Below are positions 7,436 through 12,522 of a stretch of 64,000 nucleotides of DNA, piece after piece. Source of the stretch: Rhodobiaceae bacterium (lineage in GTDB: Bacteria; Pseudomonadota; Alphaproteobacteria; RS24); NCBI GenBank assembly GCA_002721725.1, contig PBLK01000016.1, positions 47,704-111,703 of the forward strand, read 5' to 3'. The translations under genes were made by a program, and so were the position numbers. The notes under the pieces were generated by a model. It was not told the origin of the DNA and made no database searches. It was given only the letters and a program-made list of their open reading frames with translations. Each line of letters begins with the position of its first letter. Positions within the stretch are counted from its first letter, which is position 1.

Positions 7436-7548
7436 CTCAAATTGCGTTGCGTTGACATATCTCAAAACTTTTCAAAGCATTTCCATGCTAGGGCCAAAGA
7501 ATTTCGGAATCGGTATGAATTTTTAAATCCATTAAACTAAACGGCGCG

Positions 7549-7554
7549 TATATT
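7549..7554 (+). promoter_or_regulatory. Candidate -10 element of the sRNA
   Basis: TATATT lies seven bases before the first base of the three-hairpin RNA. No good -35 hexamer is visible, so this may be an activated promoter or one read by an alternative sigma factor. Confidence 0.3.
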
Positions 7555-7560
7555 AGTTAT

Positions 7561-7643
7561 TATCACACCGAATGTGATCAAGTGCTCTCCTCCCCCCTCA
7601 TTGGAGACACTTTAGCCCCGTCGCTTAGCGACGGGGCTTTCTT
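7561..7643 (+). ncRNA. Candidate trans-acting sRNA with anti-Shine-Dalgarno loop
   Basis: Three hairpins follow each other. The first is ATCACA/TGTGAT with loop CCGAA. The second is AAGTGcTCTCC/GGAGACACTT with the 12-base loop TCCCCCCTCATT. The third is a GC-rich terminator AGCCCCGTCGC/GCGACGGGGCT with a TTA loop and a short T-rich tail. The stretch CTCTCCTCCCCCC can pair with ribosome binding sites, as in the alphaproteobacterial ar14 (NfeR1) and ar15 (AbcR) families and the CCUCCUCCC-motif RNAs. The terminator has its T tail only on the plus strand, so it does not serve the convergent GntR gene. Membership in a named family is inference. Confidence 0.6.
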
Positions 7644-8277
7644 ATGTCGTTAAAAGAGCTTGCAAAGCAGCCTGCCGAGCTGCAGCTCTGTCCTTTTGAG
7701 CGATCGCTGCAGTCAAGCGTCGATAAGCTTCTAGCGGCGGCTGGCCGCCGCGCTGCTTTACGCCAAAATCAGCCAGAGGCAGGGCGGCAATGGCGAAATC
7801 ATTGGCGGCAGCGTGGTAAAACGCGGTCAAAAAGTTCATCTCAGACGGGAAATCTGAGGTTTGCTGCAAAGTGCGAAGAGCTTCTTGCAAGGCGTTATTG
7901 GCATTGTCATTGGCGCGGGCGGCAGCTAAAGCTGCCAAAGTTGGCTCCAGGGCAAGCCGTATATCAAAGGCATCATTTAATAAATCATACTTATTATTTG
8001 TATTTTCTACTTCGTTCAGCCATTTGAGTACATCTTTATCCCAGATTGCCCAATTTTGGCGCGCTGCAACATGGGTTCCTCGTCTGGGGGCAGCTTCAAT
8101 CAGACCTTTGCCGCCTAAAAGGCGCAAGGATTCGCGAATGACTGTGCGCGATACTTCAAACTCGGCGCACAATTTGATATCGCTTGGAAATTTATGGTTT
8201 TCCGGCCATTCACCACTAAATATGCGGGCCGCCAAGGCGGCAGCAACCCGTTCGGTATGGCGTAAAGCAGAAACCAT
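7642..8277 (-). CDS. GntR-family regulator, FadR subfamily with degenerate FCD domain
   Basis: A 211-aa transcription factor. Residues about 8-75 form the GntR winged helix (KFPSDIKLCAEFEVSRTVIRESLRLL, then a GLIEAAPRRGTHVA wing). Residues about 95-205 are an FCD ligand-binding domain. The FCD is short: the metal-binding histidines usual in the second half are absent (AYRRLTAAIAQKD where EHRALLDAI is usual), and the only candidate ligand left is in FYHAAAND. FCD proteins normally respond to organic acids through a bound metal, so ligand sensing here may differ. The gene is convergent with the sRNA candidate. No strong Shine-Dalgarno is visible, so the start is uncertain by a few codons. Confidence 0.85.
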   Translation of the reverse strand: MVSALRHTERVAAALAARIFSGEWPENHKFPSDIKLCAEFEVSRTVIRESLRLLGGKGLIEAAPRRGTHVAARQNWAIWDKDVLKWLNEVENTNNKYDLLNDAFDIRLALEPTLAALAAARANDNANNALQEALRTLQQTSDFPSEMNFLTAFYHAAANDFAIAALPLADFGVKQRGGQPPLEAYRRLTAAIAQKDRAAARQAALQALLTT

Positions 8278-12191: not shown

Positions 12192-12217
12192 AATCACGCT
12201 ACATATTTTTCGCGGAC

Positions 12218-12397
12218 AAGGTGCCCCGTAACAGGGGGTAAAAGGGAATGTCGTGCGGTGTGTCTGTTTAGACAGGTTACACACCAAATCGACAGCTGCT
12301 CCCGCAACTGTCAGCGGATAGGAAACGGCCAATTTGCCACTCTTTTTAAGGGGAAGGCGGCCCGACTCCGATGACCCGCAAGCCAGGAAACCTGCCT
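12218..12397 (+). promoter_or_regulatory. Cobalamin (AdoCbl) riboswitch
   Basis: The conserved elements are present in order: AAGGTGCCCC and AAAGGGAAT (P2/P3 side), then GACAGCTGCTCCCGCAACTGT, GCCACT, GGGGAAGGC, and ATGACCCGCAAGCC leading into the B12 box AGCCAGGAAACCTGCC. It lies between the BtuC-like and BtuB-like genes, about 125 bases before the btuB start. Downstream, CCTCC at 12448-12452 can pair with the btuB Shine-Dalgarno GGAGG at 12513-12517, which points to translational control. A short GACCGGTC plus T6 stretch just after the aptamer is a weaker terminator alternative. Confidence 0.95.
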
Positions 12398-12522
12398 TGA
12401 CCGGTCGTTTTTTCGCATGGGGCGGGATGTACCCGAGCGAAGCGGAACCTCCGTTAAAGACGACAGATGGAACCCGCTGCGGGCCGGTTTGGCGCGCGGC
12501 AAAACTCTGTGTGGAGGCAAAA

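Follow-up and report, generated by a model that had tools for sequence, protein, structure and literature searches.

Does the short stretch at 7561-7643, which lies among minus-strand genes, specify an RNA of its own, and if so, which sigma factor would transcribe it and what would it act on? The window, the whole 64-kb stretch of DNA analysed here, comes from a host in the PS1 clade of marine Alphaproteobacteria, an abundant, uncultivated-type lineage of the light-exposed surface ocean. On either side of the element lies a minus-strand gene, one for an MMPL-family exporter and the other for a GntR/FCD regulator. A cobalamin riboswitch is also present in the window (12202-12413, 116 bits), adjoining a FecCD-type transporter gene.

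Folding of 7561-7643 yields a minimum free energy of -38.5 kcal/mol, compared with -17.0 +/- 3.1 kcal/mol in shuffled sequences (z = -7.0), with 0/200 shuffles folding as well. The two hairpins and terminator of the original prediction are all located within this span (Table 1). The T tail lies on the plus strand, opposite to both neighbouring genes, supporting the predicted independent plus-strand sRNA gene. The element is most likely a stand-alone sRNA gene of about 85 nt, spanning about 7558-7643 on the plus strand, with the transcript predicted from these features. Hairpin 2 carries the C-rich loop that had been described as an exposed anti-Shine-Dalgarno motif, and CTCCTCCCCCC, starting at 7587, occurs once in the 64-kb window. 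The description holds for UCCCCCCUCAUU, the only unpaired part; the preceding CUCC pairs with GGAG in every homologue, so the motif as first drawn is partly stem.

Table 1. Coordinates of the predicted sRNA, its putative promoters and the adjoining gene in the window
Feature	Position	Strand	Remarks
-35 element AAATCC, RpoE (ECF11)-type	7525..7530	+	relatives have T/A-A/G-ATCC, with the perfect TGATCC in both G018 and G024
-10 element CGTA	7547..7550	+	exactly 16 bases after the -35
Decayed ECF-type promoter TGATAA-N16-CGTTTA	7538..7565	-	TGACAG-N16/17-CGTTA in relatives; overlaps the sRNA promoter and hairpin 1
Hairpin 1	7562..7578	+	6 bp; least conserved part; sequence diverged in the second genus
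Hairpin 2 with C-rich loop	7580..7612	+	compensatory changes in the stem
Unpaired loop UCCCCCCUCAUU	7591..7602	+	unpaired probability 1.0; presumed seed for G-rich ribosome-binding sites
Intrinsic terminator	7614..7643	+	11-bp stem (7614-7638) and T-rich tail; T tail longer in relatives
GntR/FCD-family regulator gene	7642..8277	-	convergent; syntenic anchor of the locus; PF00392, PF07729

A DNA search of 97 relatives locates the element in G000 (the window genome), G002, G006, G007, G009 (two copies) and G011, all of one genus. These amount to seven copies in six genomes, the window's included, with the GntR gene always adjoining. The two versions of the element in G009, a MAG with 6% contamination, may reflect a mixture of two strains. 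The hairpin-2 loop is invariant throughout the genus, the sole exception being one extra C in G011. Lack of conservation of this loop in related genomes would have refuted the original prediction, and the loop is kept. Conservation in hairpin 2, the loop and the promoter is higher than in the adjacent DNA.

A covariance model trained on the seven same-genus sequences identifies the RNA at the same locus in a second genus, in two genomes outside the training set (G018, 42.3 bits, E 6e-8; G024, 33.7 bits, E 1e-5), whose stems differ from those of the first genus by paired changes. Over nine sequences, in an alignment (A7) that was fitted to the model and is biased toward pairing, pairing cells reach 95.7%, two-sided changes affect 8/24 pairs (3.0 when shuffled; 1/500) and covariation is 0.215, compared with 0.094 when shuffled (0/500). 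In g3, a third genus, six genomes encode a three-hairpin RNA at the same place and with the same promoter element (L048, L049, L085-L088), carrying other loops (UUAAACCCUC in hairpin 2); this putative RNA may be a diverged orthologue with a changed seed. A separate conserved intergenic stretch, found in three genomes of g3 (L066, L067 at 1501-1625, and L070), places UUACCCUCCCU ahead of a strong terminator and is a possible further C-rich sRNA, with no Rfam family above threshold.

Eight relatives possess the GntR gene and have no RNA at the locus. A class-wide sample of 385 genomes, searched under strict filters by which distant homologues could be missed, contained no convincing homologue. 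Weak secondary matches to the model (L073-L081 within the family; L200 and L201 from the class sample) were rejected by eye as ordinary terminators with neither promoter nor loop. As judged from comparative sequence, the element is real and conserved, and constitutes a new predicted sRNA family limited to its lineage.

ECF11 sigma factors are the RpoE/ChrR sigma factors, which mediate the response to singlet oxygen and peroxides. Upstream of the RNA, ATCC-N16-CGTA is present at 15/15 RNA-bearing loci, always with a spacer of 16, and at 0/8 RNA-less loci, the 15 being related by descent and thus not independent observations. The ECF11 consensus is TGATCC-N16-CGTA (PMC5507510 table; PMC4336711, starts mapped; PMC5036791), and the putative promoter upstream of the RNA matches it in sequence and spacing. 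The match is closest in the second genus; AAATCC in the window has two differences from TGATCC, and the -35 of G011, ACATCC, is weaker. A position weight matrix based solely on RpoE sites published for Pseudomonas and Shewanella was tried at spacers of 12 to 20 and gave a mean best score over the 15 loci of 14.2 at spacer 16 and <=2.3 at all others. Scores on the other strand were near zero, and 0/300 permuted matrices performed as well. With a matrix built from the family's own chrR promoters, 7525-7550 is the top site on both strands of the 64 kb (15.7 vs 10.9). A genome-wide pattern search of the window's own assembly revealed seven RATCC-N16-CGTA sites, compared with two for the reversed control, and the seven include those of chrR, the sRNA and a short-chain dehydrogenase gene.

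The window genome encodes both partners of the RpoE/ChrR system. Its RpoE orthologue finds R. sphaeroides RpoE as best PDB match (2q1z, 165.6 bits; next 84.7), and its ChrR scores 163.7 bits against TIGR02451 (cut-off 124.5), with 2z2s as PDB match. The same promoter motif precedes chrR by ~100 nt in 18/22 family genomes checked and is absent before chrR in the second genus. Two marks of an RpoE/ChrR regulon member, the promoter TGATCC-N16-CGTA (apart from the two -35 differences in the window) and a genome encoding RpoE and ChrR, are both found. The genes rpoE and chrR usually form one operon; in the window genome they are non-adjacent, on different contigs (L055 and L091; contigs C7 and C11). 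Taken together, the conserved RNA and its RpoE-type promoter make it probable that the element belongs to the RpoE regulon as a trans-acting sRNA, which would block G-rich ribosome-binding sites.

Transcription by the housekeeping sigma factor, with a real sRNA and a coincidental RpoE-like element, is an unlikely alternative that draws on TATATT, which lies 7 bases ahead of hairpin 1 (7549-7554), as originally noted, and is well placed in the window. A consensus scanner detected no sigma-70 site, although weak -35 boxes could escape it. TATATT itself is not kept, being replaced in relatives by TATAGT, TATCTA, GTAATA, GTAACA or GTAAAT, whereas CGTA and ATCC are kept at their exact spacing. The conserved element is AAATCC-N16-CGTA (7525-7550), of ECF11/RpoE type, and not the sigma-70 -10 box for which TATATT had been taken.

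In most relatives, the RNA has on its left an operon that begins with an ECF sigma-factor gene and continues with a small gene for a putative anti-sigma factor and one for a Metal_resist protein; the RNA is divergent from this operon and the promoters overlap. This arrangement could place the RNA in the regulon of the adjacent ECF sigma factor instead of RpoE's, an assignment that we regard as quite improbable. The operon's own promoter, TGACAG-N16/17-CGTTA, presumed to be its autopromoter, has a different -35, and the RNA-less relatives keep this ECF promoter while CGTA is absent. In the window genome, the ECF operon has been lost (best match elsewhere 33%, no ECF ortholog) and its place is occupied by an MMPL/LolA-like operon, yet the RNA and its plus-strand RpoE-type promoter are kept, which argues that the RNA is independent of the neighbouring operon. 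A further and rather doubtful proposal is that the RpoE-type sRNA promoter and the divergent autopromoter of the second ECF factor interlock, with the -10 of one inside the other's spacer, which would make the two stress sigma factors mutually exclusive; the C-loop RNA made by RpoE would then shut down G-rich leaders such as that of cytochrome c1, limiting respiratory oxidant production.

The GntR stop codon at 7642 lies directly against the terminator, which would fit an element that merely terminates this convergent gene, or serves as an mRNA leader, and has no separate function. This explanation is very improbable: a GntR terminator would need its T tail on the opposite strand, the plus strand has no gene downstream of the element, and the conservation of hairpin 2, loop and promoter exceeds that of neighbouring DNA. 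That the element encodes a small peptide, as a coding sRNA like Pos19, is scarcely credible, since the 13-codon GTG frame crossing the loop in the window genome is missing in 7/7 other homologues tested, which refutes it as a family-wide explanation.

With the element read as an RpoE-controlled, trans-acting sRNA, singlet oxygen or peroxides would free RpoE from ChrR, and free RpoE would transcribe the sRNA. In selected mRNAs, the loop UCCCCCCUCAUU would pair with Shine-Dalgarno stretches rich in G (GAGGGGG), blocking ribosome binding to the paired leaders and lowering their translation. The RpoE promoter signature, combined with a C-rich loop able to block ribosome-binding sites, suggests that this is probably a previously undescribed stress-response sRNA. 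The C-rich loop is conserved, stays unpaired and complements G-rich leaders, as in the anti-Shine-Dalgarno class. Carrier genomes contain 13-23 occurrences each of GAGGGGG-N2-12-ATG, compared with 1-5 for the reversed control.

Candidate targets from the scan of G-rich leaders are cytochrome c1, a 4HBT thioesterase and a 139-aa membrane protein. The porin, whose leader the original prediction had suggested including in target prediction, fell outside the best predicted targets in a search within the window. Among the carriers scanned, four share the G-rich leader of cytochrome c1, which is an attractive target because singlet-oxygen sRNAs of R. sphaeroides reduce aerobic electron transport (PMC7074977); by this analogy, its choice would be a guess. 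The leader of the 139-aa membrane protein gives the best predicted pairing (-32.6 kcal/mol in G000) and contains CCAUUGAGGGGGGAGAG, with long complementarity to the sRNA loop in three genomes only (L171, L172, L173). It was rejected as a conserved target, the G-tract leader and strong pairing being confined to G000, G007 and G003. The protein has no Pfam match and occurs at >=66% identity only where the genome has the C-rich sRNA or the locus could not be found. Target activation instead of repression, by analogy with GsrN acting on katG (PMC5869019), would be equally likely.

If this reading is true, the element would be the second independent stand-alone sRNA directly under RpoE/ChrR, after Pos19, and a case of an anti-Shine-Dalgarno sRNA brought under a defined stress sigma factor independently of ar14, GsrN and CcsR. 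It would also provide a concrete link from singlet-oxygen stress to translation control.

An Rfam search of the element returned no family above its gathering threshold. The kinship with ar14 and ar15 originally proposed is not borne out, the ar14 covariance model (RF02344) scoring 24.7 bits where its gathering threshold is 58.8, and ar15/AbcR giving no Rfam match at E<=10. Two further families resemble the element in having a GC-rich terminator after a C-rich segment, and membership was rejected for both mmgR/suhB (RF00519, 27.0 bits, below the gathering score of 41) and anti-hemB (RF02837, 26.2 bits, below 49.5); the latter score looks generic because anti-hemB also weakly matches the g3 RNA. 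The cuckoo RNA motif is named for CCUCCUCCC. In ar14/NfeR1, three hairpins each carry CCUCCUCCC and the promoter is of sigma-70 type, CTTAGAC-N17-CTATAT (PMC10746234). The element is likewise alphaproteobacterial, with three hairpins and a C-rich anti-Shine-Dalgarno loop, but has this loop in hairpin 2 only and an ECF11-type promoter with no sigma-70 site.

GsrN of Caulobacter, driven by sigma-T of the general stress response, activates katG through a G-rich leader by means of a 5' C-rich loop (PMC5869019). By description, not by sequence, it resembles the element as a stress sRNA under an ECF-type sigma factor with a C-rich loop directed at a G-rich leader, and differs in its sigma-T promoter, as opposed to an RpoE-type one, and in the 5' position of its loop. 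CcsR1-4, the cuckoo RNAs of R. sphaeroides, are sRNAs of oxidative stress, within the response that RpoE initiates; an RpoHI/RpoHII promoter drives them together with a gene for a DUF1127 protein, and RNase E carries out their processing (PMC10253847, PMC7074977). In contrast to these tandem RNAs, the element is a single RNA with a direct RpoE-type promoter and no DUF1127 neighbour, its neighbours being MMPL and GntR genes in the window and the ECF operon and GntR in relatives. Pos19 (RSs0019) of R. sphaeroides, with the promoter TGATCC(N15)GCGTA, is controlled by RpoE/ChrR, measures 219 nt, encodes a peptide and is not found outside its species (PMC5036791). It shares with the element its stand-alone character and a promoter identical in motif and spacing; unlike Pos19, for which no C-rich anti-Shine-Dalgarno loop has been described, the element has such a loop within about 85 nt, and no homology between the two is claimed. 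Outside every Rfam family tested, the predicted sRNA would work like NfeR1, GsrN or CcsR and be controlled like Pos19.
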